Below are positions 12,952 through 64,000 of a stretch of 64,000 bases of DNA, piece after piece. A model generated the notes under the pieces. That model did no database searches. It worked only from the letters and a program-made list of their open reading frames with translations, and was not told the DNA's origin. The DNA comes from Sporopachydermia quercuum. Taxonomy: Eukaryota; Ascomycota; Sporopachydermiomycetes; Sporopachydermiales; Sporopachydermiaceae. Both the position numbers and the translations under genes were made by a program. The stretch lies in NCBI GenBank assembly GCA_001599295.1, contig BCGN01000005.1, forward strand, positions 1,178,001-1,242,000, written 5' to 3'. Position 1 is the first letter of the stretch. Every line of letters begins with the position of its first letter.

Positions 12952-14532
12952 TTATTCTTGTGCTGGTTTTTCCTGCTCTCCAGACTCGTTTTCTTTTACT
13001 TTCGCTGGATTATTCCAACCTGACGCAGCTACATGATAATCTTTAGTCCAATGAGCAAATGGGTATGTTGGTAATGTCTTAACTGGATCATCTTTTGAAA
13101 TAATGCCCAAGTCATATTGTCGTTGAATTAAAGAATCCAAATAAGGATTAAGGTAATCTCTGAATGATTCAAAGTTCTTATACTTGATGATAGCTTCCGG
13201 TGCTTCATAAACAATCTTCTTCAGTAAAGAAGGAATCATTGGCTCATCTTTCATTTCATCGATGGAATAAAAAATTGGATGATTAGTGAAAATAATTGCT
13301 TGACTCTTTGGTAATCTTCTCAATGTCTGCCTTTCTACTCTAACGTTGAACTTCTTGAAATCAATGGCATCCTTCTCGGAGATTGTTTCGTTTGGTTTCA
13401 AAGAATAGACATTGTTGCACATTAATTCATGGTCCCAAGTGATATACCAAGAAGCTCTTTCAACAGGATCTGAAGCTTTCATTCTTGCGAACCATCTTTC
13501 CATACTAACCTTTAGTTTCTCCTTGTAAAAAGGTACATGCTCATGTATAACATCTAAGTGCCTTCCAAGTTTTGAATCAATACCAAAAGATCCACCAGGG
13601 AATGGTACAGCAGCAGCAACTAGATAATGTCTGCCATCATCTCGTTTCATTACAACATAAAAATCTTCTTTGGCTAATTTACTGACGACAATCAATGGAT
13701 GTTGTTTCAAAGGTCTAGAAATATCAATATCTTCTTTGGTTAAAGCATTGTGTAGAATATCACCATTTCTTTGAAACAATAAAGGGTATCTTTTCACCAT
13801 ATGATCAACAACAATATCCATTAGTTCCTCACTAGGCTCATAACCTTCTGGTAACCATGCAATATTCTTATCACCATATTCATGGTAAATTCTTTCCTTT
13901 TCTTTAATATATCTGAAATACCATTTATCCATATCAAGCCAGTGATTAATATCTAATTTGAAAATAGACATTGTTTGATGATAGGGCCATCTGAATGGTC
14001 TCCATGGTCTGTCGTCGTACTTTTCAACTTCTTCAGGTTTGATCATTAAAGGTGTTGGATCTGGTAGCTTCTCATCATCTCCTGATGAACCATATAAAGG
14101 CTTTGCTTTCTCGTTGGATTTTTGACTTGTGGTTGAAGAATTAGAAGAGACAGATGCAACAGATGCTCTTCTAGAGGGAAAAATATAATCAACCAGTGAT
14201 CCTCTTCTGTTAAAAGCAGGGCCAGGTTGTTCCCCATTGGAAAATCTTCTAGCAAAATTTGGTAAAGAGCCTAGGAAAGAAGAACGACGAGAAGAAGTAN
14301 TTTCTGAGTCTGAGCCTGAAGATGAGGAGGAGGATGAATCAAGTTTTTCTTTACTGATTGATGATTTTCGAGATGGGTCCTGCTTCTCAATTGAAGATAG
14401 TGAAGGGGATGAGCTTCTTCTAGAGCTATTGAACTGTTTTCTTAGCCGTCCTGCATCTTTTACTATTTGTTCACGGCCAATTATCAGCACAGCCAAAAGG
14501 ACCAGACCAATAACAATTGGAATTGGATCCAT
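12952..14532 (-). CDS. DUF3445 (haem-dependent oxidative N-demethylase-like) protein with N-terminal membrane anchor
   Basis: The C-terminal two thirds (residues about 170-500) match the fungal/bacterial DUF3445 family, named after a haem-dependent oxidative N-demethylase subunit. Visible family features are PWRPFRWPYHQTMSIFKLD, NHWLDMDKWY, a segment with FGIDSKLGRHLDVIHEHVP, and the RASWYITWDHEL region followed by RVERQTLRRLPKS. Residues 4-20 form one hydrophobic span, followed by a serine-rich linker (residues 35-130) that probably spaces the domain from the membrane. Fungal relatives are often database-labelled as mannosyltransferases without support. No close S. cerevisiae counterpart comes to mind. 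Substrate and role are unknown; a haem- or flavin-linked oxidase role is inference from the family name. One ambiguous codon lies in the serine-rich linker. Confidence 0.75.
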   Translation of the reverse strand: MDPIPIVIGLVLLAVLIIGREQIVKDAGRLRKQFNSSRRSSSPSLSSIEKQDPSRKSSISKEKLDSSSSSSSGSDSEXTSSRRSSFLGSLPNFARRFSNGEQPGPAFNRRGSLVDYIFPSRRASVASVSSNSSTTSQKSNEKAKPLYGSSGDDEKLPDPTPLMIKPEEVEKYDDRPWRPFRWPYHQTMSIFKLDINHWLDMDKWYFRYIKEKERIYHEYGDKNIAWLPEGYEPSEELMDIVVDHMVKRYPLLFQRNGDILHNALTKEDIDISRPLKQHPLIVVSKLAKEDFYVVMKRDDGRHYLVAAAVPFPGGSFGIDSKLGRHLDVIHEHVPFYKEKLKVSMERWFARMKASDPVERASWYITWDHELMCNNVYSLKPNETISEKDAIDFKKFNVRVERQTLRRLPKSQAIIFTNHPIFYSIDEMKDEPMIPSLLKKIVYEAPEAIIKYKNFESFRDYLNPYLDSLIQRQYDLGIISKDDPVKTLPTYPFAHWTKDYHVAASGWNNPAKVKENESGEQEKPAQE

Positions 14533-22448: not shown

Positions 22449-25400
22449 TCATGCTTCATATTCCATTAAATGTCGCATAGTGGGTCTTCCATGAGGACAG
22501 TTCTAATTGATGTTAGCAAATTTTGGTTCAATCTTCATCAAAACGTAAGTTTCAAATACCCTTGAATACAAATTACTTCCAACTGTCACATTACAATTGC
22601 TTCCTCAATTCTTACTTACCCATGGCTTATCTAATTGAGATAAATGTTTAACTATTTCTTGCATCCTTTTCATTGTCAAGCTTTTCCCTATCATGACACT
22701 ACTTCTACAAGCTCTCATAGCAAACATTGCCTTTACTTTTGAGCATTTGATAGTTTTCTTACCATGAGCTCCTTCAGGAGCTTCCATTAACAAGTATATC
22801 AATTCTTGTAGATCATTTTCATCAAACACGACATCTTTTGACATTGGCAATGAAATAAGTTTACACCGTTTTCCAGTTAGTTCATCTTCATCAACGGTTA
22901 TTTTGAATCCGTTGCTCGAGAATACATCCAAGTTATTCATCACCAAGAGCTCTTCAACTGCTGTTAGCTCTAAAACATGAGGACTAGTTCCGTTAGTAAC
23001 TCCTATCAGCAGTTTATGAATATGTTCCTGAGAAATGCTTCTATACTTACATAATCAACGGTTGAATCTGTATACTTGTTGATTGCTGCAATCGTTCATA
23101 ATTGTATATTTCATCAGAAGCATGTTGATCAATTATGAACAAATCAACTTTCTTTTTACTATCATTAAGGCTCGGCCTTTCTTTAGTTACTATGATAAAT
23201 CCAAGATTAAATTGGCCGATCACTTTCATTTGAGTGAAGTCTTCCTTATCTATGTGTAAGGTGAGTTTCTCTTCAGGTGATATCGATTCTTCCTCCACAT
23301 CTTGGATATTACTGATAGTTATATCATTGAGATTAGATTCCGGTGATAGTCCTTTAGTTGCACTACTAGTAATACTGTCATTCTTCTTGTTGGATGGCCT
23401 AACAGAATTTTCTGTTAGCTTTCTAAAAGATTTGATGATGCTATCTTCGTTCACTGTTAACTTTTGTCTCTTATTGACTGTTTGTTTCAATGGTCCTATA
23501 TGTTTTCGTCTAATTGACTCGAGTATTGAGGTACCTGGACTTTTTCTTGATGATCTTTGAGATTGGTTAGTGTTACCATCAGCACCACTATTTTCAGCTA
23601 ATTCATTACTGATAGCTTCTTGGGAAAGTGAAGCCTCAGCAGCATCAATTACTGACTTATATGCCGAAACATCAGGATTGTTAATAACTTCTATCCCATC
23701 TATTGTCACTGTAAGTTGATTATCTTTGGAACCACGAACATTACTATCGCTGTTGATTATGTCTGATTTGTTTATCATGGTACTGGAACTTGAAAGAACT
23801 GCTTCTTCTTCTTCGTCGTCTTCGGGGTTGAGAAACAACTTGGGTGAACTTCCCAAATTAGGAGAAGGGCTCCTTTGGACTAGTTGGCTTATTGGTTGAG
23901 AAGAGTTTCCTTCTGCAGGAGAAATAGCAGGTGACGATGAAGAGGAACGCTGGCTGTAATTATCATCTGTAATGTTATCCAGGTCTTCACAATTTTCAGC
24001 TAATGAAACATTTTCCTCTCTATGATTGAATCTTATGTTCTCAGGGTCTGCCTGTGATTGTTCCTCCTCCTCTTCTTGTTCGGAGTACTTTGAGTACTTT
24101 TCCTGAATATCGTGTTCGTTTTCTTCACCAAATCTTTTGATTATTGTCACCTTCATGTATGGATTCGTCACCTCTGTACTGTTGTGTTCTTCTTCTTCTT
24201 CTCCTTCTTTTCCATCTTTTTCTTTTTCATCATCAGATTCTTGTATTTCACGGTCGCTTTTGTCCTCTTCTGCAATGGAAAATTTCTTTCTACTAGAAAA
24301 CTCTGAAATAGGTCTAACAAGCTCAGGAGATCTACCTATTTTTGATAAAAAGCTTTCAGATATCTGTGATTGAGACTTCGGAATAACATGTGAAGAGCTC
24401 TCGAATAGTGTAATCAATTCATCCTGTACTGTTAATATATGCCTTCTTGTTTATGAAAAGAAGTCAACTCTTGAGATTGTTACCGAGAACAAATCATATA
24501 CTTATGAATCGCTCATGTGGAATAGCTAATGTAGGGTAGTGCAACATACCTTTAATCTTTCTAAAATTAATGACTCATGCTGTAATAAAATAGTCCTTTT
24601 ATCAGGAGTAACATTCACATCAATGAGCTCTGTGTAAAGATAGTTAGTATTAGTATTATTACAATTATGTACTAGGAACCAAATGATTACCTCAATATCA
24701 TACATACCTGGATCTACTGTCAAATCCAAAACAAAAAAAGGAAACTGAAGAGCATTCAGCGACCTATATGCTTCATTGATGACTTTCGTGCATGCCGGAA
24801 ATGACACTGGTCTAGAATTGATATATATATATTGTCTATCAGAAGAATTACGTCCTTGACCAAAACTGGGTTTCGATATCCAACCAGAAACACGAATATC
24901 AATTTTCTTTCTATCGGATGATCTTTGGGCTGCTTCAACTGATACATTCAAATCTAACTGCTGTAGAGAATAAAGAGTCACTGTGCCAAATATTGATATA
25001 ATGTTATTCTTAATTGAACTGTTCGGTCCACCTTTCGTTGTTAGCAAAATCGACTTCTTGTCATTCTTACCAGAATTTGATACAACAAATTTAACAAAAG
25101 GGTTTATAATAATATATGACTGTAGTATACTCAGACATTTAGTGAATTCCCGTTTGACATTCTTCTCGAAGTCTTTCCTTCGCACTGGTAAATTGTAGAA
25201 TAGATTGTTGATACTGACTAGTGTCCCTTGCTTACCTGGAGAAACAATTGAGTTTAGCAGTTTTCCTTCATGACTGAATTCAAGCTTATAAGCAATATTA
25301 CCATCATTTCTTGTGCTAGTTACAATACTCAGATCAGAAATAGCACATAATGAGCTCAAAGCTTCACCTCTAAACCCCAGAGTAGTGACAGATTCTAGAT

Positions 25401-25653
25401 CAGTGAACTGAGATAACTTGGAAGTGGCATGTTTTAATGCTATTAGTTCATGGTTCTCTTTTGAAACACCATCGCCATTATCCTGAACTTCAATACCATT
25501 TAGACCATGATTCTTGAATCTGATTTCAATCACTGAACTGTTAGCATCCAAACTGTTTTCTACTAGCTCTTTCACTGATGTTGTTAGGTCAATGATGACT
25601 TGACCTGAAGTGAGTCTATGAATGGATGAGCTGTCAATAGGTTTGATTGACAT
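22449..25653 (-). CDS. PMS1: MutL homologue Pms1 (mismatch-repair endonuclease), five exons
   Basis: Pms1 pairs with Mlh1 as MutL-alpha and nicks DNA during mismatch repair. Exons: 25653-24708, 24629-24550, 24423-23051, 22983-22620, 22502-22449; they join in frame to 938 residues (873 in S. cerevisiae). Introns are 78, 126, 67 and 117 nt, all starting GTATGT or GTAAGT, with a CTAAC or TTAAC box close to the 3' AG. The N-terminal GHKL ATPase shows VKELVENSLDAN, DNGDG and TLGFRGEALSSL; LIDVNVTPDKR is restored by removing intron 1. An acidic, serine-rich linker follows. The endonuclease domain keeps the metal motif DQHASDEIYNYE, ACRSSVMIG, and CPHGRPTMRHL in the last exon. The start is the ATG at 25653 (MSIKPIDSSSIHRL). 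Intron 1 is free of stops in frame, so an unspliced message would add 26 residues. Confidence 0.93.
24630..24707 (-). other. PMS1 intron 1: 78-nt, stop-free, frame-preserving intron
   Basis: It begins GTATGT and ends TACACAG, with TACTAAC at 24649-24643. Removing it joins VDP to ELIDVNVTP, the invariant MutL sequence. Its length is a multiple of three and it contains no in-frame stop, so it can be mistaken for coding sequence. Confidence 0.88.
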
Positions 25654-28932: not shown

Positions 28933-30826
28933 TTTGTTTCGTTTTTGATATTTGGATTGATAATAATGATGAAATAATGAAAATTACAAATGAACAACTG
29001 TTAAAAATCAACGACTTCAACGGAAATACTTAGCCAGACAACTGTTACTCAAAACAAAAGCGAGTTGCAACTGGAAATAAAAATAAGAAAAAGGCGAACA
29101 ATAAGTATAAACGTAAGTAAAGTAAGGAAGGAAGAGAAAATATATGAAGCTATCTGGAAGAAGTTTGAAAAAGCTATCAATCATCGGTCGATAATATTTA
29201 AATTCCCAAGCCACACAAAACCGTTTACTTTGTTCAAGGTGGAAAATTGTAACCTACTAACTCAAAGTTGATTTCGAGATTAGTGAAATCATATTATAGC
29301 CTTCTCATTGGATTATAAGCATTAGGGCTCACAATAATATTCGAAACCTTAATGTTAAATGAACTGATGTTAAAAATTTTGAGCGGGTAGAGTGCCGGTT
29401 AATGCAGCAGGTGCATCTTATTGCATAATAATGCTCCAACTGAAGGTGGGGGAGCGGTCATAGCGGTCATAGTATTGCCTTTTCAGGGAATAAGATCCTG
29501 AAAGACATTGGTTGCTAGAGTGAGGATTGAAGATTGAGTTAGCCAATGTAGTTAGATACTTCTTTGAGATTATGTATCCAGATATAGGACAGATTACATA
29601 TAGGATGAAAATTGTTGGATGCTAGGGGACATTACAGTAAAAAGTGTTTATGTCATCAAAATATATTGGTCTACAATTGGTTGTTGTTTATGATTGGTGA
29701 GAGGGGATTGTGAAACATACATGTATTAATTCTTGATATCAAGGGTTTGTATGGAGATAGGATGTACGGATTGAGTATATATTTCTTACTGTGAAACATA
29801 GTTTGCTCTCATTGATTCAGTAAGAACAATTTCAATTTGTTTATGGGGTCGAAGAGCTGAATTAGAATCCTGGACATTCTGCCAAACGAGAGAGGGTAGA
29901 ACATTTGCTCCTGCCGTTGGGAAGGAATAGCCACTAATCCTTGTTCTTCGTTGAAGTTGGTTTCACATCTAACGGACTGGCTGGTACTGGTAGTTGGTCT
30001 CAAGATACATCGTTATCTGTCCAATAGTGATCGATAGAAGAAGAGAAGCATTTCATTGAGGAAATTATCCGATCGGACAAGAGTATGTTCAACCATATTT
30101 GGAAATAATGCGGAGTGGAGTATCGATAGCAAAAGTAGTAAATACATCTGCCAACTAGCTAACTAGTCAAGATTTGTTCGCATGTTAGTTAGGCAACAAA
30201 AATGTAGTTCAGGGATATTACTGAAATTTGACACTTATCCGACGACATCTGTGCGATACTGAGATAAATAGCTTATATAATGTATGTAGCATCATGTGCT
30301 ATAACAGAGTCATACATAACTATGCGTCATTCAGTTTGCTTCAAGGCCATCGATCACAGCATTGTAGAAGGCATGGCGTGTTAATTAATTTCTTGATTTT
30401 TATAGAAAACTTGTAAAGTAGGGAATATTTAATTTTTTGGTTTTGATTGAAATCGAAACCAAACGTTTAGAATAAAATGGTTGAACAGAACTTATAGTTA
30501 TAATTTTGCTTCAATATGAATACATATGTTGCTGAATATTCCATGGCAATCAAAAATTGCAATCTGTATATGTAATGAAATCAAATACTTACGCTTAACT
30601 GCAGAACAGTGCATATCAATGGACTTTATTGATTATTGTAAGGGAAGTTTGTTAGGGATATTTGTAGAATGTATGTCACAAATCAATCATTGAAATAAAT
30701 ATCAGCCAAGCAATAATCAATCTACGTCCCAGAGGCAACTCATGTTAAGTTCCAAATGTATTTTATACCATCATATTGATTTATATACAGAGTATTATGT
30801 GGTAAACCTAGACACCCATATTACTA
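28933..30826. promoter_or_regulatory. Long HEM1 upstream region with a G-rich block and a tandem 9-mer
   Basis: About 1.9 kb between HEM1 (divergent side) and the MRPL49 stop. No gene was recognised; a few frames of about 60 codons look random. A block at 29380-29540 is richer in G than its surroundings and includes two abutting copies of AGCGGTCAT (29453-29461, 29462-29470). I tried to match it to spliceosomal, SRP and RNase P/MRP RNAs and found no conserved core. It may be a regulatory block for HEM1 or an unannotated RNA. Confidence 0.4.
29453..29470. repeat. Tandem 9-mer AGCGGTCAT x2 upstream of HEM1
   Basis: Two exact abutting copies of AGCGGTCAT, about 520 bp upstream of the HEM1 start. 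Each carries a CGG triplet, the half-site recognised by Zn2Cys6 activators such as Hap1, but the arrangement is not the classic Hap1 spacing. The functional role is a guess. Confidence 0.4.
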
Positions 30827-48510: not shown

Positions 48511-49615
48511 TCATCGATTATTTGGAAAATTCAATCTCTTGTGCAAAGGTAGAGTGATTCTGGAGTTAAGTGGTTCTACCATTTTGCCAGCAATTGACTT
48601 TGCTTCGGCATTAACCTTTTGAGTCTTATTATTCTGCCTTGGCTTTTTCGGAGATGCTTTTCCTGGCTCCTCCTTTGTCTTTATTAATTTTGAAATGCTG
48701 CTTTTTTTCGCTATCGCCGATTTGCTAGAATATAATCAGTTAGTGAAATAAAGGAAAATTAAGTAAACAAGATCTTCAAACCATAAAAACACATACCTAC
48801 TATCAATTCTGGAAGCAAGGGGCCTTTTTGTTAAGTCTACAACCAATTCGAGCTGTTAATTCAAGACAGTTAGTTAAGTTTTCAGCTAAACAGATAAGTT
48901 TATTGTCTGGTTTATATTGCATATAAATATGCTGCACTTATAACTCTAAACCGCAATTGACATCCATGAGTACATACCTTTAATGAATATTTTCCACCAT
49001 CCAGGGTTGTTCCGTCATATTTAGAGACTGCCATACTAGCATCTACTGATCGTCTGAACACTACCGAGCATTGTCCGATAGACTTCCCTCTTTCATCATA
49101 GCTCACAACACATGATTCAATAGGTCCAACAGAAGCTTCAAAGAAATCCTTAACAAGTAGATTTGTTAGAAGGCTATATCTATAATATAATTGTTCTGTA
49201 CTGAAAAGATCAATGTACATAGAAACATACTTGAATGGATTGAGATGGTATATCATTGGGCTAGATAAAAATATGTTAGTGAAATAGTCGGATTTAAAAC
49301 AAACAATTCACCCAAAAGAATCCTCATAATGTATTAGATCAAACATAACAGTNGGTCTCCTACTCAATTGTAACATACCAGATTCGAAATTAGAACCTTC
49401 GTAGACTGTTTTGAACTCAATGCTATTGGATCTTTTTGCTGAATTGTTTCAACTAGTTTCTTAACTGCTTTGTCTGATACCACATTTTTCCGGGTACTGG
49501 CCTTCAGATTAGATGATGCTTTTGACACTGTCTTCAACTTTGATTTACTGATTTTATCTCTCTTTCTGTCCAGATCTACATTGATCCGCGAAGCCAAGCT
49601 TGGAAGTTTACCCAT
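48511..49615 (-). CDS. YRA1/ALY-REF-family RNA-binding protein, five exons with a 30-nt microexon
   Basis: REF/ALY proteins bind spliced mRNA through one RRM and recruit the Mex67 export receptor. Exons: 49615-49379, 49260-49231 (30 nt), 49148-48978, 48852-48797, 48724-48511; the joined frame is 235 residues with no stop. Introns are 118, 82, 125 and 72 nt, each starting GTATGT with CTAAC near the 3' AG. The RRM spans about 72-150: VLISNL (exon 1), PNDIPSQSIQ (microexon), DFFEASVGPIESCVVSYDER, and DGGKYSLK|LELVVDLTKRPLASRI, matching the Yra1 fold closely. N- and C-terminal arms are Lys/Ser-rich. The short acidic helices at each end of Yra1 (like LDEIIG and LDKEMADYF) are not seen, so it may be a diverged relative rather than Yra1 itself. 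MAGO lies just upstream on the same strand. Confidence 0.82.
49231..49260 (-). other. 30-nt microexon of the YRA1-like gene
   Basis: It is bounded by CTAG upstream and GTATGT downstream and encodes exactly PNDIPSQSIQ. That fills the RRM between ISNL and DFFEASVG with the same spacing as Yra1 (LPRDI then REFF). Both flanking junctions fall between codons. Confidence 0.85.
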
Positions 49616-50146: not shown

Positions 50147-50917
50147 TCATATAGGTTTGATCTAAATGGTTAATGTTAGTACTGTCTACTAATGGCAAAG
50201 AAAGAAAATATCAAAAGATCCTGATCAATATCTGAGTGACTTGAGGAGCAATCATAAACATACCTTGAAGTTTAGAGAGATAAGCGAGAATATTAGACTT
50301 TTCAAATCTTGCACCAAATAATAGAAGACACGAAGACCTTCTGGATCATCAGAGTTCTGAACATCATTCAACGATCCAATCTTTGCAGTCTAAAATCGTT
50401 AGTATATACCAAATTATAAGGGTGCTCAAATATTACAATGCAACCTGAAGGAGTCTAATGAACAGAAACAAATGTGTGACAGCAGGATATCCCAATTGAA
50501 ACATTCCTATCGCATTCTCAACAACGACAAATTGCAACTTACCTCAAACGATATATGGTATCGTCCTAGCCTAACTTCCAGTTCCTGTTTTCCTTCTCTA
50601 TTTCGTTCAGGCCATTTGCTGTCATCTTCTTTCAAAATTTCTGAGTCGATGATGATTTTCTTCAACTCTTTCACCATCAATGAGCTCACTGCCATTTCTT
50701 TCTTGATTAGCGAATCATTTCTATAGTTGGAATTATTTGCATACCTTATCACTGCTATTTTACCATCACTCAAGACTGTCACATCAAACTCCAGAAATTC
50801 ATGTCCAAACTTTCCTCTATGTCCTGTGTAATATCTCACGTAAAATGGCTCTTCCTTGTTATTCACATCAACAGTTACATCGTCCGTTTGGTCAACTTCT
50901 TGGTCTATTATATCCAT
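50147..50917 (-). CDS. MAGO: Mago nashi homologue (exon-junction-complex core), three exons
   Basis: Mago binds Y14 and clamps eIF4A3 on spliced mRNA upstream of exon junctions. Exons: 50917-50543, 50389-50264, 50161-50147; joined length 171 residues. Introns are 153 and 102 nt (GTAAGT...TACTAAC...TTTTAG and GTATGT...TACTAAC...TTTAG), both between codons. After about 22 acidic N-terminal residues the sequence follows animal Mago almost without gaps: [71 protein letters not shown], then exon 2 [20 protein letters not shown] and [10 protein letters not shown]. The last exon encodes only IKPI, the invariant Mago C-terminus. An insertion of a few residues (near [11 protein letters not shown]) is the main difference. 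The start is the ATG at 50917; an in-frame ATG at 50980 is possible. It is divergent from TYS1. Confidence 0.95.
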
Positions 50918-51497
50918 CTCTGTATCTTTTCCTTTATATCTGTTTGTACCAACTGATGAAAATAGATTTGTGATCAGCAATTACCACAATGTCCTCTTTA
51001 CCTTAAAATGCAAACGTTTGGTTATCCAATCTGATTTTCTCTCTTCTTCCTTACCATTACTAGGTGGCAACAACAACAACTGCTATAATTTATCTTCAAA
51101 GCAGATAAATAAAGTACCTTTCTGGATCATTAGACATTCCCAAACTATTATTCAATTGAAATCCACTATATTTTCTCGTTCTTAGGATTATTTACTCCTA
51201 TACTAATTGACATATAGTGTACTAGAGCCAGGAAAGGAGACTTGATGTTAATACTCAATGGTCTCATAATTACACTAATAGTATATTTTATACTTGGCCT
51301 TGGCACACAAGACTCCCCCCGCTTAAAAAACTCTCAACATGAAAAATAAGGAGCAAATAATGAACCATGCATGAGTCATATAAGGAACAATGTAAATGCG
51401 CAACAATTGCATAACTATCAAATGATAGATCGTGTAACAATATAGAAAGTCTCGACAAGACTGTAGTGAATTGTCAATTGTAACCCAAATCAACAAT
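50918..51497. promoter_or_regulatory. Divergent MAGO/TYS1 promoter region
   Basis: About 580 bp between the two starts. CTCCCCCCGC at about 51311-51320 is a C-run of the stress-response-element type, roughly 180 bp upstream of TYS1. No other site or gene is clear. Confidence 0.4.
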
Positions 51498-52709
51498 ATG
51501 GCTGCCACCGAAGGACGAATTGCCCCTGAACAGGCATTCAACCTGATCACTAAGAATCTCCAAGAAGTTATTCATCCTCAAATCATCAAAAATGTATTAG
51601 AAGTAGAGAAAAGACCACTGAGAGTTTACTGGGGAACGGCTCCTACCGGTAAGCCACATTGTGGTTACTTTGTACCAATGACAAAAATTGCTCATTTCTT
51701 AGCTGCTGGGTGCGACGTGGTTATCTTATTAGCCGATTTGCATGCTTTCTTAGATAACATGAAAGCCCCTTTGGAAGTTGTTAATTATAGAGCTAAATAC
51801 TACGAAAAGGCCGTGAAAACAATTTTAACATCATTGAATGTTCCAATTGAGCAGCTATCATTTGTTGTTGGATCATCTTATCAATACTCCCAGCCCTACG
51901 TGTTAGATTTATTCCGATTGTCCAACATTGTCACTCAAAATGATGCCAAGAGAGCTGGTGCCGATGTTGTCAAACAAGTAGACAATCCCTTATTATCTGG
52001 TTTGATTTACCCTCTTATGCAAGCACTAGATGAAGAGCACCTGAAGGTTGATGCACAATTCGGTGGTGTTGATCAACGTAAAATTTTTGTTCTAGCTGAA
52101 GAGAACCTGCCATCTTTAGGATACAAGAAGCGTGCCCATTTAATGAATCCTATGGTCCCAGGCTTAACTCAAGGTGGTAAAATGTCAGCATCCGATCCAA
52201 ACTCAAAGATTGATTTACTAGAAGATCCTAAACAAGTAAAGAAGAAGATTAACACTGCTTTTGCTGCTCCTGGTGTGGTTGAAGGTAACGGATTGATTTC
52301 TTTTGTCGAATATGTTCTATTACCCATTTCCGAGTTAAAGAACGGCAAAGGTGAGTTTTTCATTGACCGTCCTGAACAGTATGGTGGCCCAATTACCTAC
52401 GATTCTATTGAGAAGTTAAAGGAGGAGTATGCATCTGAAGTGCTTTCACCCCAAGATTTGAAGATTGGTGTTGCTGATGCCATCAATTCCTTGTTAGAAC
52501 CGTTGAGAAAAGCCTATGTAGAAGATGCCGAATTTCAAAAGGCTGCCGACTTGGGTTATCCTGCCCCAGTGAAAAATGAAAAGAAGAAGGAAAAGAAAGT
52601 GAAGAATAAGGGAACCAGATACCCTGGTGCTAAAAAACCAGAATCTGAAGAAAAGTCCCAAGAAAAAGTTGAGGAAGCAACAAAGAAGTTAGAAGAAACC
52701 TTATTATGA
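51498..52709 (+). CDS. TYS1: Cytosolic tyrosyl-tRNA synthetase
   Basis: Class I enzyme that charges tRNA-Tyr. From the ATG at 51498 (context CAATATGGCTGCC) it is 403 residues (394 in yeast Tys1). The Rossmann domain carries the HIGH-equivalent WGTAPTGKPHCGYFVP, the tyrosine pocket region, AQFGGVDQRKIFVLAEE, and the KMSKS-equivalent GGKMSASDPNSKIDLL. The helical anticodon-binding domain follows from about residue 235. The C-terminus is Lys/Glu-rich (KKEKKVKNKGTRYPGAKKP), as in fungal enzymes. The frame extends nine codons upstream but without an ATG. Confidence 0.97.
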   Translation: MAATEGRIAPEQAFNLITKNLQEVIHPQIIKNVLEVEKRPLRVYWGTAPTGKPHCGYFVPMTKIAHFLAAGCDVVILLADLHAFLDNMKAPLEVVNYRAKYYEKAVKTILTSLNVPIEQLSFVVGSSYQYSQPYVLDLFRLSNIVTQNDAKRAGADVVKQVDNPLLSGLIYPLMQALDEEHLKVDAQFGGVDQRKIFVLAEENLPSLGYKKRAHLMNPMVPGLTQGGKMSASDPNSKIDLLEDPKQVKKKINTAFAAPGVVEGNGLISFVEYVLLPISELKNGKGEFFIDRPEQYGGPITYDSIEKLKEEYASEVLSPQDLKIGVADAINSLLEPLRKAYVEDAEFQKAADLGYPAPVKNEKKKEKKVKNKGTRYPGAKKPESEEKSQEKVEEATKKLEETLL

Positions 52710-53487: not shown

Positions 53488-56400
53488 TTACATGGTTTCC
53501 CATCCTCCTAGATTATTGAGATTCTCAAGCTTTCTAGTGATATAATTTGGATATCCATGTTGTAGCCATACAGTACGTATAAAATGTTCATATCGTTTAA
53601 CATTCAAGTACAATGGATCTCCTTTGCGGGCAGTTTCTTGTCCCTGACCATGAGAATCCAAAAATGGGGATGGATAAAACGACCCTTTACCATTTCTCAA
53701 TAATAAAATCGCATTTTGCCTAGGCAGGAGGAAGATGCCGCCTGCTCTAGAACAGGCTTCAAAGCAATGCAAGCTACATTGTCCCATAGTCGTAGAAGCT
53801 GAGGTTTTCTGCACCTTCATTGTCTTAGAACAGAACAAACATATTGCAGGATCACTGGTCAAAAGCTCATTATCATTGAGTCCTTGTTTGTATTTCCCAT
53901 AACAATAAGTATAGAAACATCGGGTAAAGTAGTAATCTAGCCTTGATGGAAGATTGATTAGCTGAACGACCCCTGGGTATTCTAACCTACCTATCAATGA
54001 AGCATTGGTTGATATGTTCTTAGCCTCAACATAAGCAAGGAAGTATTTGATGATTGGCGTTACTTGGAGATTACTATGATTGACATTAGTTACTCTGGTA
54101 GTAAACAGTTCTACTGGTGCATCACCATTGTCACCACCATCAACACTAACTTCAATTCCCTGTAAAAGCTCTCGAGCCACCGTTTGAATTGAAGGCAAAT
54201 TCAATAGTAAGCACAATTTGTCAGCCTCAAGACTATCATATAGATCTTCGAACCTCGTTTTATCATATCCATTAGCAGCCATAATAAAACTCCAGATAGC
54301 AGCTCTTCTCAAGTAAGGTGTGACTGCCTTTAAAACCATAGTATAATAGGCCATAGGAAACCTATGATCAGCAAGTAGAGAGGTGATCCTGGTACTTAAT
54401 GTTTTACTAGAAACACCAGCAAATAAGCGGAAGAGCTTAATAAAAGCTGCTTTACTATCACTGTCAAGCTCAAGCGCTGCAACTGGCATTTCAGCAATAG
54501 AAAGACCCTTGGGCCAATCGTCATTAACTATTGTCTCTGCAGCAATAGTATACCCAGCTTTAATAATACAACCAATATAACAATGGCCTAGCAAGGCTTT
54601 AAAAGGGATCCCCAGCGCCATCAGTGGTGACGATGTCACCAGTAATTTAAACAAATCGTCATATAAAACTGAATCACAGTACTGATTTACGTCCTGGAAG
54701 CATACAGCAGCTCCAAGATCGCTCAACATACTATGCAATTCAGTTTCTGGTTCGTTATGCAATACTTTCAATGTATTTCTACCAACAAGGGCCAGGTGTG
54801 TCATCTTATAATCGTTGAGTATTCTCAGGGCCCTAAGGCTTTGATAAGGTATTTGGTCAAGCACTGTGCCCATATCAAAGTTGTCATACTCCACGCCTCT
54901 TAAGGAGATTTCAATTTGCTCAATAGTATTAGATAGCAAGCTTGATACAGTTGAATAGGTGCCTAATAGCAATTGGAATGTCTGTTGCGTCATATCCAAC
55001 GTTTTGATCATTCTACCGTTATTAATAATAGAATACTCCTCACCATCTTCAGGGAAAAGGTCTCTTCTCCTATAGCTGTTTTTCCCACTCTTCGTTATGG
55101 CCAGCCAACTCTGAACCATTTGCTCTTTCAAATCTCCTCGCAGATTTCCCGTTTGATCAAGCATTTGATCGAAATGCTGGAAAATGCTCGTGGTAAAATT
55201 AATTCCCTGCAAAGGAGTTTGTGATTTCTCATTTCCATGTATCAACAACGAAATATCGCTAGTATTTGCTTCAGAAAGCAAAGGAACAAACAGATTGTTC
55301 ACAGCTTTACATAATGGACATATAAACTCATTGCGCGTTTGATCCTCAGGTATTGTATATGATAGCTGCAGCATTCGACTTCTAGTATCAAGGTAATACT
55401 TCTGGAAGCATTCAAAATGCATCCCGTGTCCACAGGATGTGAATATTGAATACATATGACCATATCCACAGTAGGGATCATTGCTTGTTTCAAAAGGGAA
55501 TCCAGGACCGCAGGTAGTTAATTGGGATAGTCGATGTTCAAAGTAGTCCTTCCACTTGGCAGAACCTCTTGACAGAATCTCGTCAGGGGTTGAAGATGTA
55601 TCCAAGTTTTCATTGTCAGCCATACTACGGTAGAACCAGTAATGGTCATGGAAAGGAATGTCTCTGAACACAGTTGACTTGGAGACATAGCTAAGGATGC
55701 CAAACACGTCATTATCAGTTGGAGGCATTTGACATAAGATGCAATTCGATGAGCCGTACTGATAGAATTGGTCAAATGACGAGCTGGCATTAGAATAAGC
55801 ATTAGAAGTATGTGTATTGTGATTAGTAGTATTAGCATTAGCAGCAGCACTGTTATTAGCCTTAGAAGTACCATTGTTAGTAGGATTACTATTCTCAGTA
55901 CCATCACTGCTATTCGCGTCCTCCATTGGAAAATCATCGTCCAGTTTGAACTTCTGAGCAAAACTCTTTTGGTTGGCTTCCATTTCTTCCATAATCTTCC
56001 GTTTCCTTTCATTTGCCAGCCTTTTCTTCCGCTGTTTCTCCTCTTCAGCATCAACANACCTCGGCTGGAAATCCAGCGCTGCTAATTCGTCTTCTTTCAA
56101 TCCCACCGACTTCCGTAAACCATCATTAAACATCTCAGGGTCCATTTTCCTCAGCATTAGCAGTACTTGTTTGATTTCACCATAAACAGCTTTGAACTTG
56201 CCATCGCGGTACATAGTATAAAGCAAACNAGCTACTGATACGTCTGGTTGAATAGATATTTCCATACAGTTAGCAGCACATTGATTTCTAGTATTCCCAT
56301 CGTCCAGTTGAGTGAGAGATAATAGTAGAAGTATTAAAATAGCTCTCAAGCTTGAGTCTTCAATACCTGAAAAAGTTCCAGTAGCCATTCCTCTAAGAAT

Positions 56401-59400
56401 ACTGGCAATGCTTATAATGAATAGCTTACTGCCAGTGATATCAAGAAGTTCTGAATAGCTTGTACTGCTCAAGCTTAAGACCTTTGGCATTAGAACCAAA
56501 TCTTCCGGGTTCTTGACTTTAGGAGCAAAATCAACAGCACTCTTCTTATATTTGTTCATATATTTATCCCTATCTTCAATGCCAATGTCAATTCCTTTAC
56601 TGAAAGCTTTTCTTAATAGACCATCAACATCATCACGTTGATTAGCGGTATAGGTGACATAATAAGGATTGATCTCCTTATAATACTCATGCTTTAACTC
56701 ATACAGTCCAGTATCATTGATACCATTAGGAGCAACATAATTAGCCACCTGGTTTAAAACTCCATCAAAAGATTTCTCATTACATAACTGATCAGACAGA
56801 ATTGTGCAGATGTTTGAATAGCTGGTTGACTTCTGGATGAGTAAATGGATTATTTCCTGCTTTATATGGTCATTTGTTACGTCTTTTTCATGTTTATTCA
56901 GTAGATGTGTTCTCTCTGTAAACAGGGTCAGAAGGAAATGAATAAACTCTTCAACAATAGGGCCAAAGGTTTCCTCGGTATAAGGCAAAGGGATAACAGC
57001 AACAGGTGCTTTTCTGTTTCCGCTATGACTGTCACCATCAACATCATCGTCAGTTATCTGGTGAGCCACGAGAACGTCATACAGTTTCCACCTGTCGAGA
57101 AGAGTCAAATAACACTTTTCGCTATCCAAACAAAGCATGAGCTGCACCATATAGATGTCTCGCATATAAAATGACTTCCGAAGCCCTGTTTTATATAAAT
57201 ACAGCTGGGTCTTGATACTGAAGCCATTTCTGACCCAAAGATTGCATTTAATCTGCGCTGCCATTGCTATGACTCTGATAGGATAATCAAACATCATATC
57301 CAGCAATTCCTCGCCATTGCAAGGGAATAGCCTATGTAGGTCGTCAAAAGACAGAAATCTTATCAATTCAAGCATATGGCTGACCAATGAATGCACAGGA
57401 TGCAAGAAGCTGGTAGATTCTTGAGATACATCATAGTCTACTATGGTGAATGATTTTTCATCGGCAGATCGGACGATTTTCATTCTATTTCTGCCATAAG
57501 GCTCACTGGTTGATTGAGAAGGGAAAGCATTGGTGATAATATTTGCTAAGCCGTTGAGAAAGAACTTTAGAGCTTTCAATGCTAATGTTGGCTGTTCATC
57601 AACAAGTTTATCATACGCTTTTATATAGTTATCTATGAAATGACATAGAATCAAAGCAGCATTGAAATATAAGTTATAATCCTGAGATTCGTACTCCACA
57701 TGCTGATTAACAGCTCTTTTGATAGGAAGCTTACCATTTAGAAGCATCATTAGATCCATAACTGCAGATAGAACATCAGGTCTCGCTAGCAGAGCATAAT
57801 TCTCGTTTCTGCTGATAATATAGCCAATTTCAAAGAACAATTGCCCGTATTTCCTGTTTTTCAGGCTGTTGTTGTTGAGATCAACTGGCCATCTGGGCAG
57901 ATAGCAAGTATCTACACCGTTAATGCTAATTGGAGGTTTGAAGCCTTTTTTAAAGGAGAAACCTGGAGGATAAACTGCACCATGAAGGAAGAAATTCTTT
58001 ATACATTCAACCATTTGCTTAAAGCATTTAGAAGATATAATACATCTGGCATTCTCTTTAGGAGTGAATAGTTGTGTTGATAGAGATCCCATTACATTGC
58101 ACTCAGCCTCACGATCAACAGATAGGAACAAATGGCTGATTACCGGATATATTGTTGAGTATTGAAGGGCAATCAAAGGTTTGAATTGCAAATTGGAAAT
58201 GAAGCAAGAAACGTATAAATCATGAAGAATCATTCTTATACATCGCCAGAATCTTATATCGTACACCAGCAGGTACTGGAATCTCGATGGGTATAAAAAT
58301 GAGTGATTCTGCTGCTGCTGCTGATTGCATTGATTGAGGATCGCCTGGGATATATTCCAGTCTATAGCATTCACACTATATGGAAGGCAATTGTTCCCAT
58401 TATAATCATCGGCAAAGCTATAATCCACATCGGTATAAATAGTCTCAACCTCTTTACAGTATTCCATATAGAAGTCCTGTTCCTCTGTTATTCTGGTGAA
58501 GTTATTCAGCAAAGAGCCAATTGGCAGTTCTTCTTTCACTCCTAAAACACCACTGGAAATATTTGGCTCGTTTCTTATCTCCTGGATATTTAGCTGCGAC
58601 AACGACAGAATATCTTGGTTGTTTCTATTTGTTCCATCCTGAGAATTTGCACTGGAGCTCTTGTTGGAATTCTCGTTCTCGTGATCATTGAAACCAGAGA
58701 ATCCTAAGCCTGTAGAGTTAGTATATAACGTGCTACCATTGGGTCTAGATCCATTTCCTAATGATCTATATCCATTAGAAACACCTGCGCATAAAACCTT
58801 CGATAATTCAGCTTTGGCAAAGGAATAATTGCCATAAAATTCACCACAGGAGATATTATAAACCCATTCAACCATTTCTCCACACATTTCCTCTCGGAAA
58901 TAATCCCGGACGGAGAGAACGCTGAAAGTGAGACCTGTGGTTGACATTATTTTCACTTTAGCAATCAGCTCCTCGAGGTTTCTGCTGACCATTACCAGGG
59001 CTCTTCCGTGTGAATTGACTCTATTCACCACCATTTCAGCAAACTGGGTGCTTTTCCCTAGAGCATTGGATATTCTATGCACAGCATCCATATAGTGTTT
59101 AGTAGGATCATTATATAGAACAGCGCAGTATTTGCCGATGGTTGCGATATTTGTATCGGAGATTCTGTACTTGCCAGATGGCAAATTTCTTTTGCCGCCT
59201 TGCTGTAAAACCGTTTGCACGTTGAGCTCGTTGCTAATGATGGATTGTAGTGTTTCTGTAGACTTGGACATTATATCTAGAACGAAATCCCACACGGCTG
59301 CGAGAGTAGAATTCAGGCTCAAAGTTAAATCCGCAGGAATATCGGCAAGCGAAACTGATTCCGGAAACAATTGGTTAGCACATTGGAGATCGGTTTTCCA

Positions 59401-59994
59401 TGCGTCGGGATCCCCGCAATCGCAGACTCCTCCGTTATCCCGCATACATATATTTACCTGTACTTCGTGACCCGTGTGATCGGAAGCGTTGAAACAGGAT
59501 TCGCATAAAACACAGGAACCGTCAACCCCACATGTGAGACATCTGTAGGTGGGTTCGCTTTTTTTGAACTTCACTGTGCAGGGGCGGTTCGGATGAGCGT
59601 GGGAAGGAGAAATGGGCAGTTTCCATGCGCTATTTATCTGATCGTCGGAAGCGGAAGCAGAGGACTTTTGCTTCGATTCAGATGAATCGAGATAGTTAAA
59701 CCCAAAAAACAAGTCTTCTGGAGCTTGGTCCGCTATTATTTCTGGTTTGGTCTTATCCTTATCACTATTGGTCATCAGGGTGTCATCTACCTCGGAACCC
59801 AATATATCGTACCATGTTTTTTTGTTGAATGAAGCCTCCGGCCGGTCCGGAAATAATTGTGGCAAGTATTTCCCATTATTGGATGCCGAATAGAACAAAG
59901 CTCTTCGTAAATGGGCTTTTGCTTTCGGTGTGAATTGGTAGTTGAACAGAGAAGGTAATACAAGAAAGTACTGTTTCAAATCATGGGGATCCAT
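53488..59994 (-). CDS. UBR1: E3 ubiquitin ligase Ubr1 (N-recognin)
   Basis: Recognises N-degrons and ubiquitinates them with Rad6/Ubc2. 2168 residues (1950 in S. cerevisiae), one uninterrupted frame. The UBR box lies at about 138-208, with the zinc ligands in RCLTCGVDGSCVLCESCF, the DHTGHEV segment and GGVCDCGDPDAW, which forms the type-1 pocket. A ClpS-like N-domain follows around 290-380. A basic helical region (QRKKRLANERKRKIMEEM) near 1320 precedes a Ser/Asn/Thr-rich linker. The RING-type domain is at about 1400-1560 (CILCQMPPTDNDVFG, CGHGMHFECFQKYY, FICPLCKAVNNLF). The C-terminal cap has CLFCSKTM and YLNVKRYEHFIRT. The ATG at 59994 (MDPHDLKQYFLVLPSL) is the first in frame. Two ambiguous codons lie in the linker region. 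A paralogous ligase lies directly upstream on the same strand. Confidence 0.96.
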   Translation of the reverse strand: MDPHDLKQYFLVLPSLFNYQFTPKAKAHLRRALFYSASNNGKYLPQLFPDRPEASFNKKTWYDILGSEVDDTLMTNSDKDKTKPEIIADQAPEDLFFGFNYLDSSESKQKSSASASDDQINSAWKLPISPSHAHPNRPCTVKFKKSEPTYRCLTCGVDGSCVLCESCFNASDHTGHEVQVNICMRDNGGVCDCGDPDAWKTDLQCANQLFPESVSLADIPADLTLSLNSTLAAVWDFVLDIMSKSTETLQSIISNELNVQTVLQQGGKRNLPSGKYRISDTNIATIGKYCAVLYNDPTKHYMDAVHRISNALGKSTQFAEMVVNRVNSHGRALVMVSRNLEELIAKVKIMSTTGLTFSVLSVRDYFREEMCGEMVEWVYNISCGEFYGNYSFAKAELSKVLCAGVSNGYRSLGNGSRPNGSTLYTNSTGLGFSGFNDHENENSNKSSSANSQDGTNRNNQDILSLSQLNIQEIRNEPNISSGVLGVKEELPIGSLLNNFTRITEEQDFYMEYCKEVETIYTDVDYSFADDYNGNNCLPYSVNAIDWNISQAILNQCNQQQQQNHSFLYPSRFQYLLVYDIRFWRCIRMILHDLYVSCFISNLQFKPLIALQYSTIYPVISHLFLSVDREAECNVMGSLSTQLFTPKENARCIISSKCFKQMVECIKNFFLHGAVYPPGFSFKKGFKPPISINGVDTCYLPRWPVDLNNNSLKNRKYGQLFFEIGYIISRNENYALLARPDVLSAVMDLMMLLNGKLPIKRAVNQHVEYESQDYNLYFNAALILCHFIDNYIKAYDKLVDEQPTLALKALKFFLNGLANIITNAFPSQSTSEPYGRNRMKIVRSADEKSFTIVDYDVSQESTSFLHPVHSLVSHMLELIRFLSFDDLHRLFPCNGEELLDMMFDYPIRVIAMAAQIKCNLWVRNGFSIKTQLYLYKTGLRKSFYMRDIYMVQLMLCLDSEKCYLTLLDRWKLYDVLVAHQITDDDVDGDSHSGNRKAPVAVIPLPYTEETFGPIVEEFIHFLLTLFTERTHLLNKHEKDVTNDHIKQEIIHLLIQKSTSYSNICTILSDQLCNEKSFDGVLNQVANYVAPNGINDTGLYELKHEYYKEINPYYVTYTANQRDDVDGLLRKAFSKGIDIGIEDRDKYMNKYKKSAVDFAPKVKNPEDLVLMPKVLSLSSTSYSELLDITGSKLFIISIASILRGMATGTFSGIEDSSLRAILILLLLSLTQLDDGNTRNQCAANCMEISIQPDVSVAXLLYTMYRDGKFKAVYGEIKQVLLMLRKMDPEMFNDGLRKSVGLKEDELAALDFQPRXVDAEEEKQRKKRLANERKRKIMEEMEANQKSFAQKFKLDDDFPMEDANSSDGTENSNPTNNGTSKANNSAAANANTTNHNTHTSNAYSNASSSFDQFYQYGSSNCILCQMPPTDNDVFGILSYVSKSTVFRDIPFHDHYWFYRSMADNENLDTSSTPDEILSRGSAKWKDYFEHRLSQLTTCGPGFPFETSNDPYCGYGHMYSIFTSCGHGMHFECFQKYYLDTRSRMLQLSYTIPEDQTRNEFICPLCKAVNNLFVPLLSEANTSDISLLIHGNEKSQTPLQGINFTTSIFQHFDQMLDQTGNLRGDLKEQMVQSWLAITKSGKNSYRRRDLFPEDGEEYSIINNGRMIKTLDMTQQTFQLLLGTYSTVSSLLSNTIEQIEISLRGVEYDNFDMGTVLDQIPYQSLRALRILNDYKMTHLALVGRNTLKVLHNEPETELHSMLSDLGAAVCFQDVNQYCDSVLYDDLFKLLVTSSPLMALGIPFKALLGHCYIGCIIKAGYTIAAETIVNDDWPKGLSIAEMPVAALELDSDSKAAFIKLFRLFAGVSSKTLSTRITSLLADHRFPMAYYTMVLKAVTPYLRRAAIWSFIMAANGYDKTRFEDLYDSLEADKLCLLLNLPSIQTVARELLQGIEVSVDGGDNGDAPVELFTTRVTNVNHSNLQVTPIIKYFLAYVEAKNISTNASLIGRLEYPGVVQLINLPSRLDYYFTRCFYTYCYGKYKQGLNDNELLTSDPAICLFCSKTMKVQKTSASTTMGQCSLHCFEACSRAGGIFLLPRQNAILLLRNGKGSFYPSPFLDSHGQGQETARKGDPLYLNVKRYEHFIRTVWLQHGYPNYITRKLENLNNLGGWETM

Positions 59995-60770: not shown

Positions 60771-63700
60771 TTACTCTTCAAACTTATAGTATTTGAGATA
60801 ATTACTTTTGATGTAATCCAAGAATGCAGGCTTATCCCTTATACGACGCTGCTCCAATGCCCAAGTCTTAATATTAGATGAAGGATCATAAGGACCGATC
60901 TGTTTCATCATTGAATAATAGTTTCCATCAAAAAATACTTCCTCATTGCCATACATTGGATTAAAATGTTTCTTGTTCTGAAGCACGGACATCTGCTGAT
61001 GTGGAGGAAAATGGTTTCGAACTTGCTCTGTGATTTCTGCTCCAGGTTGAGGTCTTAAGGTGACTTCTGTTTGTTCTTCTTGAGCGTCAATAGGAACAGG
61101 ATTAACAGTAACAGTATCAATTGGTTGCTCTTCAGTAGTTAGTTGAGCTGTAGTTTCATTATCATGATCTTCGTCTGAATTGGCGTCATCATCTATTTCA
61201 TCATCCTCCATGTCTTCATCATCATCATCGTCATCATCGTTAACGACAACGATGTTTTGACCATCGAATCTAATTTCAATGTTTCTATTGTTGTTGAGTT
61301 CATTTATGAAATCATTTCGTGTAACTCTTCTTCCACCAGGGAATCTTACATGGTCTCTACTTATTAAACCACCAATCTCACCTTTCAGATACATATCGGT
61401 CAAATGATCATATCTCTCTTGACTCAATGTGATATCATATACATTGACGACACCTCCTCTTCTTCCGCTGAATGGTTCTCCATGAGAATCTAAATACAAC
61501 GAAGGATACTCAGTAACGCGCTCTTTGTAATATAATAAAACTGTGCCAGTCAATGTGCCTAAGAACAAGCCTGTTGATCCTGTACATTTAGGCACATGTT
61601 CAAGCATCTGTCCATATACAGAGAATTTATCTCTTTCACCACAATGCAAACAAACAAACAAATCGCCCTGGGTTACTCCTTTTTTTAGATCATCTTGGAA
61701 ATAGTAATCCAATTTCTTAGGTAATCTATAGAGATCTAAAGGTGCTGAAATTTCAAGTTTCCTACCCAAAACTCTGTTGAGGAACTCAAAGTTACCAAAG
61801 TTATACAATTTCTTGTTTGGGGAATCGATGAGCGTCTGATCTGGCAGTGCAATCAATGACGTAGTTATATCTTCAACCGTTCTTGGTTCACATTGATATT
61901 CTCTGTTGGAAGCTGCTCGGATAAAGTATTCCAGTCCTGGTATCTGCAGCAGTGTGCATAATGAATGGAATTCAATTTCCCAATCACTTTCATAATCCCA
62001 AGCATCTTCATATTGATAATCAAAACAGGTAAGAGCACCATACAAAATACTAGCCCTTCTAAGGAAAGGAGTTGTTGCTGTAGTAAGCATAGAACCTAAA
62101 CCAAAGAAAAACCTCTTGACATCCTCGGTGTTATTGGCAATATACATAAGTTTATCGCCTGAAGTACCTGTTTGGTTGAATATANCCGTGAAAAAGTCTG
62201 TTATAACTCCTAATTCAACTGCTTCTCCAAATTCACTTTCTGATGCAAAATCCAGAATATCATATTCGTCGGAATCTAGAACTCCATCTAACCAATAAGC
62301 AACAAAATCGACAATAGAAACCGCTTTCGAGACCAGTTCGTACACAAGACACATTCTCACATGGTTTTGGAAGTGAAGTGGATCATGAAGAGTCAAACCA
62401 ACTAGCTTTCCAAAGAAATCATCAGCTTGAAGGAAAACTTGCATTTTAATCTTCATCATTTCTCTCAGCTTCATCTTAGATACTAATACTTTCCATTGAC
62501 AGTCAAGCAATGCCCTGTCGATAGGTCCAACAAGATCTGGTGCTACGTTACATTTCTTATGTCTGTGTCTGATTTCCAGGCCCTTAATTGAGCTGATAAA
62601 AGCACGAATCAAGTCAGAATAGTTGTCGCCGCACATTACCACAGGATCCTCAACAATCTTTGTTTTCCATTCTGGTTGAGCTATCATATCAAAATACTTG
62701 CTGAAAGAGTCAGTATTAACTAGCTCCATACCAACCAGACCATAAGAACTAATGATACGTAATACCCAAGGAGCCAGCGCCAAGCGACTTGCGGCGAAAT
62801 NCTCTTCATACATAATAAAATCGCGGTCTTTTCTCAGTAAAGAAGATCTTGAAACCTGCGACAATCCAGGAATCTTAGGAAGATAGAAATTAGCTGTAGA
62901 ACGACATAAGGGACATGAGACCACTTGCGGCATCCTTCTACCTTGAGGGGAGTTTTGATTTTCATTGCAATACTTTTCGAAACAAGTGTAATGGATTCTA
63001 TGGCCACAGCCATGAATAATTGGTATATCATCTACAGTTGAGTCATGATACACACTGTCATCCCAACCTTCACGATCTCTGTGACTATTATGATAAAACG
63101 ATTTTCCTTCAATACGGTAGCTAGTATGATAGTTCAAGGCAGGTCCTTCTGGACATTCGGAATAAATCTCGTCTCTATAAGATTCCCATTCTGATGATAC
63201 ACAGTACTTGTGATTTAAGGTAGACCCCTCTGCAAAGTTCTTGGCGATAATGAAAGGTAGGTACTTGGGCTGAACCTGATCCCAGTCAATGGATTCTAAA
63301 TATCTTACCAATGGTGTGTTATGTTTAGCGGCTAGTACGCCAGAGATGTCGGACTCTTTGAATGGGATTTTGCAGTAGATGCAGTATTCCGTGTTGTCAT
63401 CTTCCTCTACTCCCGTTTGGTCTTGATCCCTTTCTAGAGCATTTCCTGTAGTTTGCATGAACATCTTTTGATTGGCAGCAAATTCTTCTACGATTTTCTT
63501 CTGTCTCAGTCGGGCTCGTTCTTTCCTTGCTTCATCGTTGAGATTTACTTTTCCAATAGGCCGTTCCAACGACGATAGAAAGTCTTCCTCAGCAGAATTT
63601 GACTCAAAATTAAGAGATTCCAACAGGGTTGATTTATTCCATTGCATTAGCAATTTCAAACATGACTGAACAAGAGTTCTTGTTTCTTTGTCGATTGTTT

Positions 63701-64000
63701 CATCTGAAAACAACGAGAATAACGTATGGGCAATTGAATTTGACAAGTTTGACGCGTTTGCTAGATTGGAGGTTCGACATAGTGAAGAGAAAAATTGGTC
63801 ATAAGGCAATGGTTCGGATTGATCTAAATTAAGATCTAATGTCAGTGATTTAGGTTCGTCTTGTGAGGATTTGGCATCTATAAGACCTGCAAAAATGAGA
63901 TAAATGACTGCAAAAAGAATACCATCGTTTTTCTCACTGACAGCAAATGTGATCACGGCTTTGATAAATCGGATAATAGTTTCGCCCTTGGTGAAGGAAC
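60771..64000 (-). CDS. Second UBR1/UBR2-family E3 ubiquitin ligase, 5' part outside the window
   Basis: The frame is open to the right edge, so the N-terminus with the UBR box lies outside; about 1,076 C-terminal residues are visible. Order matches the second half of Ubr1/Ubr2: a basic helix (RKERARLRQKKIVEEFAANQ), then a RING-type domain (CIYCKIPFKESDISG, HGCGHRIHYTCFEKYC, SCPLCRSTANFYLP). A helical middle follows, then a zinc-binding cap with CLHCGERDKF and YLDSHGEPFSGRRGG. The C-terminal tail is longer than in Ubr1 and acidic (NDDDDDDDEDMEDDE), ending in an aromatic, basic segment. In yeast, Ubr2 targets the proteasome regulator Rpn4, and this is probably its counterpart. Assignment to Ubr2 rather than an Ubr1 duplicate needs the missing UBR box. 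Two ambiguous codons occur. Confidence 0.88.
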   Translation of the reverse strand, partial: SFTKGETIIRFIKAVITFAVSEKNDGILFAVIYLIFAGLIDAKSSQDEPKSLTLDLNLDQSEPLPYDQFFSSLCRTSNLANASNLSNSIAHTLFSLFSDETIDKETRTLVQSCLKLLMQWNKSTLLESLNFESNSAEEDFLSSLERPIGKVNLNDEARKERARLRQKKIVEEFAANQKMFMQTTGNALERDQDQTGVEEDDNTEYCIYCKIPFKESDISGVLAAKHNTPLVRYLESIDWDQVQPKYLPFIIAKNFAEGSTLNHKYCVSSEWESYRDEIYSECPEGPALNYHTSYRIEGKSFYHNSHRDREGWDDSVYHDSTVDDIPIIHGCGHRIHYTCFEKYCNENQNSPQGRRMPQVVSCPLCRSTANFYLPKIPGLSQVSRSSLLRKDRDFIMYEEXFAASRLALAPWVLRIISSYGLVGMELVNTDSFSKYFDMIAQPEWKTKIVEDPVVMCGDNYSDLIRAFISSIKGLEIRHRHKKCNVAPDLVGPIDRALLDCQWKVLVSKMKLREMMKIKMQVFLQADDFFGKLVGLTLHDPLHFQNHVRMCLVYELVSKAVSIVDFVAYWLDGVLDSDEYDILDFASESEFGEAVELGVITDFFTXIFNQTGTSGDKLMYIANNTEDVKRFFFGLGSMLTTATTPFLRRASILYGALTCFDYQYEDAWDYESDWEIEFHSLCTLLQIPGLEYFIRAASNREYQCEPRTVEDITTSLIALPDQTLIDSPNKKLYNFGNFEFLNRVLGRKLEISAPLDLYRLPKKLDYYFQDDLKKGVTQGDLFVCLHCGERDKFSVYGQMLEHVPKCTGSTGLFLGTLTGTVLLYYKERVTEYPSLYLDSHGEPFSGRRGGVVNVYDITLSQERYDHLTDMYLKGEIGGLISRDHVRFPGGRRVTRNDFINELNNNRNIEIRFDGQNIVVVNDDDDDDDEDMEDDEIDDDANSDEDHDNETTAQLTTEEQPIDTVTVNPVPIDAQEEQTEVTLRPQPGAEITEQVRNHFPPHQQMSVLQNKKHFNPMYGNEEVFFDGNYYSMMKQIGPYDPSSNIKTWALEQRRIRDKPAFLDYIKSNYLKYYKFEE

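Follow-up and report, generated by a model that had tools for sequence, protein, structure and literature searches.

A complete and probably functional MAGO gene with two introns in what appears to be a budding yeast

Introduction

Mago is a protein that helps to mark spliced mRNAs, and forms part of the exon junction complex (EJC); Saccharomyces cerevisiae has lost it. The closest described system is that of Yarrowia lipolytica, in which, by the account of PMC6351623, Mago binds Y14, the proteins Upf3, Pym and Aly/REF associate with them, and nonsense-mediated decay (NMD) is independent of both Mago and Y14. According to the same 2019 paper, at least seven Saccharomycotina possess Mago, Y14 and eIF4A3; five belong to the Yarrowia group and two, unexpectedly, to the Phaffomycetaceae. 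Wickerhamomyces ciferrii and Cyberlindnera fabianii are named among the species that keep Mago, and losses are placed in the Saccharomycetaceae, the CTG clade and the Pichiaceae (PMC6351623). Species of low intron density are described as tending to be without Mago and Y14 (PMC5862402). As for splice signals, ACTAAC is given as the branch-motif consensus shared by every fully sequenced hemiascomycete, and Y. lipolytica is said to favour a GTGAGT donor and a distance of 2 nt between branch motif and AG (PMC2483917), a preference stated elsewhere as 1 nt (PMC13309789).

Here, we analysed a 64-kb stretch of DNA (the window), for which an earlier note had proposed a Mago gene and, with it, an EJC-like pathway. 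The note had named Yarrowia alone as a source of Mago among Saccharomycotina; Yarrowia does keep the gene, but so do at least two Phaffomycetaceae, according to PMC6351623. Retention in several budding yeasts is thus already known, and the gene described here is one more case. Among the matches listed in our literature search, there was no survey of Mago across Saccharomycotina later than PMC6351623.

Results

Structure and Splicing of the MAGO Gene

The MAGO gene lies on the minus strand and consists of three coding exons and two introns (Table 1). The earlier note had described it as complete, with introns at codon boundaries and the final IKPI alone in a 15-nt last coding exon, and this was borne out: the exons join in frame, both introns start and finish at the positions given in the note and are of phase 0, and the codons of the last exon spell IKPI and a stop. 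Each exon length is a multiple of three, the spliced open reading frame (ORF) has 171 codons plus TGA, and the gene span contains no N bases. The branch motif stands 6 nt from the AG in intron 1 and 11 nt in intron 2, the latter having a second motif, TTAAC, closer to the AG and leaving 5 nt.

Table 1. Coordinates of the features discussed, in positions of the window.
Feature	Position	Strand	Description
MAGO gene	50917..50147	-	Three coding exons and two introns
MAGO coding exon 1	50543..50917	-	375 nt, codons 1-125
MAGO intron 1	50390..50542	-	153 nt, phase 0, GTAAGT...TACTAAC...TTTTAG
MAGO coding exon 2	50264..50389	-	126 nt, 42 codons
MAGO intron 2	50162..50263	-	102 nt, phase 0, GTATGT...TACTAAC...TTTAG
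MAGO last coding exon	50147..50161	-	15 nt, ATC AAA CCT ATA TGA = IKPI*
REF/ALY-like RRM gene	48511..49615	-	Next downstream of MAGO, same strand; predicted 235 aa
REF-like predicted introns	49378-49261, 49230-49149, 48977-48853, 48796-48725	-	Gene model
Tyrosyl-tRNA synthetase	51471..52709	+	Divergent, upstream of MAGO; ORF from TTG, in-frame ATG at 51498
PMS1-like mismatch repair gene	22449-25653	-	Predicted introns 24707-24630, 24549-24424, 23050-22984, 22619-22503
UBR1-family tandem pair, first ORF	53488-59994	-	
UBR1-family tandem pair, second ORF	60771-63956	-	
HODM_asu-like haem-dependent oxidative N-demethylase domain protein	12952-14532	-	PF11927

Retention of intron 1 would bring in a stop after 11 further codons, with loss of the last 46 residues, and retention of intron 2 would replace IKPI by VCL and a stop, after 3 codons. 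As both retained-intron forms spoil the protein, splicing is needed for a normal Mago, and expression of the gene would consequently be sensitive to splicing.

We compared the intron pattern with a background of 60 first-order Markov simulations. Across the whole 64-kb window, GTANGT-(up to 200 nt)-TACTAAC-YAG was found five times, as compared with a mean of 0.52 and a maximum of 3 in the simulated sequences. Two of these occurrences are the MAGO introns, two fall within the PMS1-like gene, and the remaining one is at 29113-29283 on the plus strand. The last is a complete GTAAGT-TACTAAC-TAG pattern inside a stretch of about 1.9 kb in which no gene was recognised, and may be a chance occurrence or the intron of an unseen transcript.

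Conservation of the Mago Protein

The spliced 171-aa protein matched the Pfam family PF02792 (Mago_nashi) over profile positions 1-142 of 142, with an E value of 5.6e-69 and 231 bits (cut-off 27). In the PDB, the matches at E values up to 0.001 were seven, all named Mago nashi or Mago nashi-like; they include 2hyi_A (5.3e-58) and 1oo0_A (6.9e-58), which we take to be human MAGOH and Drosophila Mago, respectively. Identical residues numbered 98 of 145 aligned with human MAGOH and 96 of 144 aligned with the fly protein, with no deletion in either case. The earlier description of this Mago as nearly gap-free therefore stands as regards deletions relative to human MAGOH, but the protein has insertions of 2 and 3 residues on either side of DGK, within a single turn, and is extended at the N terminus by about 21 residues. 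In the alignment, Asp66 and Glu68 of human MAGOH correspond to Asp91 and Glu93 of this protein, the two human residues being described as UPF3B contacts in PMC6351623. The full-length Pfam match, the similarity to PDB chains, the intact frame and the splice signals lend good support to the argument, made in the earlier note, from conservation to a working protein. The family of the protein is settled by this similarity and, judged by its sequence, it is very probably a complete, conserved and working Mago.

The GC content of MAGO is 0.368 and its third-position GC is 0.378, the latter lying within the range of 14 other genes of the window (0.268-0.390), so that its composition gives no sign of recent foreign origin. 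Horizontal gain is disfavoured by this composition, and it is also argued against, for the Phaffomycetaceae, in PMC6351623. A peptide-pattern search for relatives in viral contigs and in bacterial and archaeal genome contigs matched 6 and 34 stretches, respectively, none of which encodes a Mago relative, as expected for a eukaryotic gene. The codon bias of MAGO (0.047) was the weakest among the 15 genes compared, the next being that of a UBR1-like gene (0.057), partly because the reference set consisted of the other 14 genes with MAGO left out. Such a weak bias would be in keeping with a gene that is expressed at a low level or under relaxed constraint.

Intron Signals, Genetic Code and Flanking Genes

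Ten introns were predicted in the models of three genes, namely MAGO (two), the REF/ALY-like gene (four) and the PMS1-like gene (four). Their branch motifs were TACTAAC (four), CACTAAC (two) and one each of AACTAAC, TTCTAAC, TGCTAAC and TATTAAC, the last in the PMS1-like gene; seven donors were GTATGT and three GTAAGT, with no GTGAGT. The distance from branch motif to AG ranged from 5 to 18 nt, and intron 3 of the REF-like gene has a second motif, TTAAC, nearer the AG, which leaves 0 nt. Four predicted introns seem many for a budding-yeast gene in the case of the PMS1-like model, whose end reads WNCPHGRPTMRHLMEYEA.

To compare readings of CUG, Pfam bits were summed over 20 domain scores from 10 genes, the overlapping models MFS_1, zf-met and zf-C2H2_4 being left out of the sum. 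As compared with leucine, the sum fell by about 49 bits when CUG was read as serine and by about 32 when it was read as alanine. In the opposite direction, serine raised two domain rows, by 0.1 and 3.3 bits, and alanine raised one, by 3.3. Of the models left out, MFS_1 rose by 0.3 (serine) and 2.2 (alanine), zf-met fell, and zf-C2H2_4 dropped out. CUG codons 42 and 113 of MAGO both align with leucines of human MAGOH. The Pfam sums and these two codons argue against a yeast of the CUG-Ser or CUG-Ala type; from these sequence comparisons, CUG is most likely read as leucine.

The tyrosyl-tRNA synthetase encoded upstream of MAGO scored 633 bits to 2dlc_X and 421 bits to the next PDB chain, and an mS29 homologue in the window matched three chain sequences, all of them S23/mS29. 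We assume that 2dlc and the matched mS29 chains are from Saccharomyces cerevisiae. The flanking genes and the intron signals fit a budding yeast. Elsewhere in the window, the second ORF of the UBR1-family pair has only a PRT6_C C-terminal part and a weak RING, its start being close to the window end. The 64 kb contain 21 single N bases, mostly isolated (e.g., at 49353, 45021 and 14300), which may be heterozygous or ambiguous calls. Neither Rfam, at gathering thresholds, nor ARAGORN found an RNA gene in the window.

A REF/ALY-like Neighbour of MAGO

A distance of 531 nt separates the MAGO stop from the ATG of the REF-like gene. The model adopted for this gene was the third longest of six candidates, and was picked because it keeps the RNA recognition motif (RRM) whole. 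The modelled protein contains RRM_1 at 49.9 bits in Pfam. In the PDB, its first match was a poly(A)-binding protein (1.8e-11, through three weak domains), its best single-domain match was ALYREF, THO complex subunit 4 (E value 1.2e-9), and seven of the 18 sequences listed below the first were ALY/REF, with other RRM proteins listed too. A WxHD motif is described as connecting human ALYREF to eIF4A3, and an SLDD/E motif is described for UAP56 (PMC4797287). WxHD is absent from the modelled protein, which has no tryptophan at all, and SLDD/E was not found in it by eye. Because the RRM matches are mixed and both motifs are missing, we regard the neighbour as REF/ALY-like, not as a proven ALY. Among the 24 window genes given to Pfam, no other gene had an RRM.

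The letter in YALI0 gene names presumably denotes the chromosome. In Y. lipolytica, Mago is named under YALI0D, Aly/REF under YALI0F and YRA1 under YALI0A (PMC6351623); going by these names the genes are on different chromosomes, so the adjacency of MAGO and a REF-like gene is not common to Y. lipolytica. Chance is a sufficient explanation for the adjacency seen here. A bolder reading, which we consider unlikely, would place this budding yeast beyond the Yarrowia group, and possibly beyond both reported groups, and would have its MAGO and REF/ALY-like genes, both with multiple introns, joined head-to-tail as a small linked module leading from splicing mark to export.

Discussion

Taken together, we hold with high confidence that the MAGO gene of the window is intact and native to its genome, and that it belongs to a budding yeast in which CUG most likely stands for leucine. 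For the alternative of a gene copy in decay, or of contamination in the assembly, the window gave no supporting evidence; the frame is open across the three exons with intact splice signals, and the gene has a base composition in its neighbours' range and ordinary genes on either side, which makes this explanation hardly credible. It is also very improbable, if slightly less so, that the window comes from some other ascomycete yeast, for example of the Taphrinomycotina, in which Mago would be ordinary. Against this origin stand the ACTAAC-type branch motifs in seven of the ten predicted introns, the gap between the two best scores of the tyrosyl-tRNA synthetase and the restriction of the mS29 matches to S23/mS29 chains.

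The presence of an EJC-like pathway is a separate matter. In view of the literature on Y. lipolytica and on intron density, the conserved Mago sequence speaks for a working protein and does not, alone, show an EJC pathway; such a pathway in this yeast is plausible. By family resemblance, Mago would pair with Y14 as a heterodimer, and the pair would join eIF4A3 and the peripheral factors PYM, REF/ALY and Upf3. The complex would tune the handling of spliced and unspliced mRNAs, as in Y. lipolytica, and would be dispensable for NMD. An alternative, to which we give somewhat less than an even chance, is that Mago has been kept without an EJC of the metazoan type, serving together with Y14 in a chaperone, splicing or nuclear-retention role that is not linked to exon junctions. 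It agrees with the description of Y. lipolytica in PMC6351623, where the two deletion mutants differ in behaviour, the breakdown of unspliced transcripts is unchanged and deposition onto spliced RNA was not demonstrated. However, the UPF3B-contact residues are retained in this Mago, and the ten introns predicted in three genes of the window mean that there are junctions to mark. This alternative bears on the pathway only, and is compatible with a native, intact MAGO of a budding yeast.

With this gene, the genome joins the short list of budding yeasts with EJC parts, and its introns look different from those of Y. lipolytica. With yeasts of this kind, one could test why some lineages, S. cerevisiae included, gave up EJC parts together with introns and others kept these parts.

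As compared with human MAGOH and fly Mago, the protein shows a whole-length family likeness and the common FKIKPI ending, and it keeps the counterparts of Asp66 and Glu68; it differs from them in the five residues inserted in one turn and in the N-terminal extension. Y. lipolytica Mago (YALI0D26664), as described in PMC6351623, is likewise of full length and retained by a budding yeast; its identity to the human protein is similar, being given as 62.7% over 150 aa, and the corresponding value here is 67.6% of 145 residues, or 65% when the five inserted residues are counted. The N-terminal extension of the present protein is shorter than the 45 aa described for Y. lipolytica Mago. The splice signals, finally, are of another style: in contrast to the GTGAGT donors and 1-2 nt branch-to-AG distances of Y. 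lipolytica, the introns of this yeast combine GTATGT or GTAAGT donors with distances of 5-18 nt.
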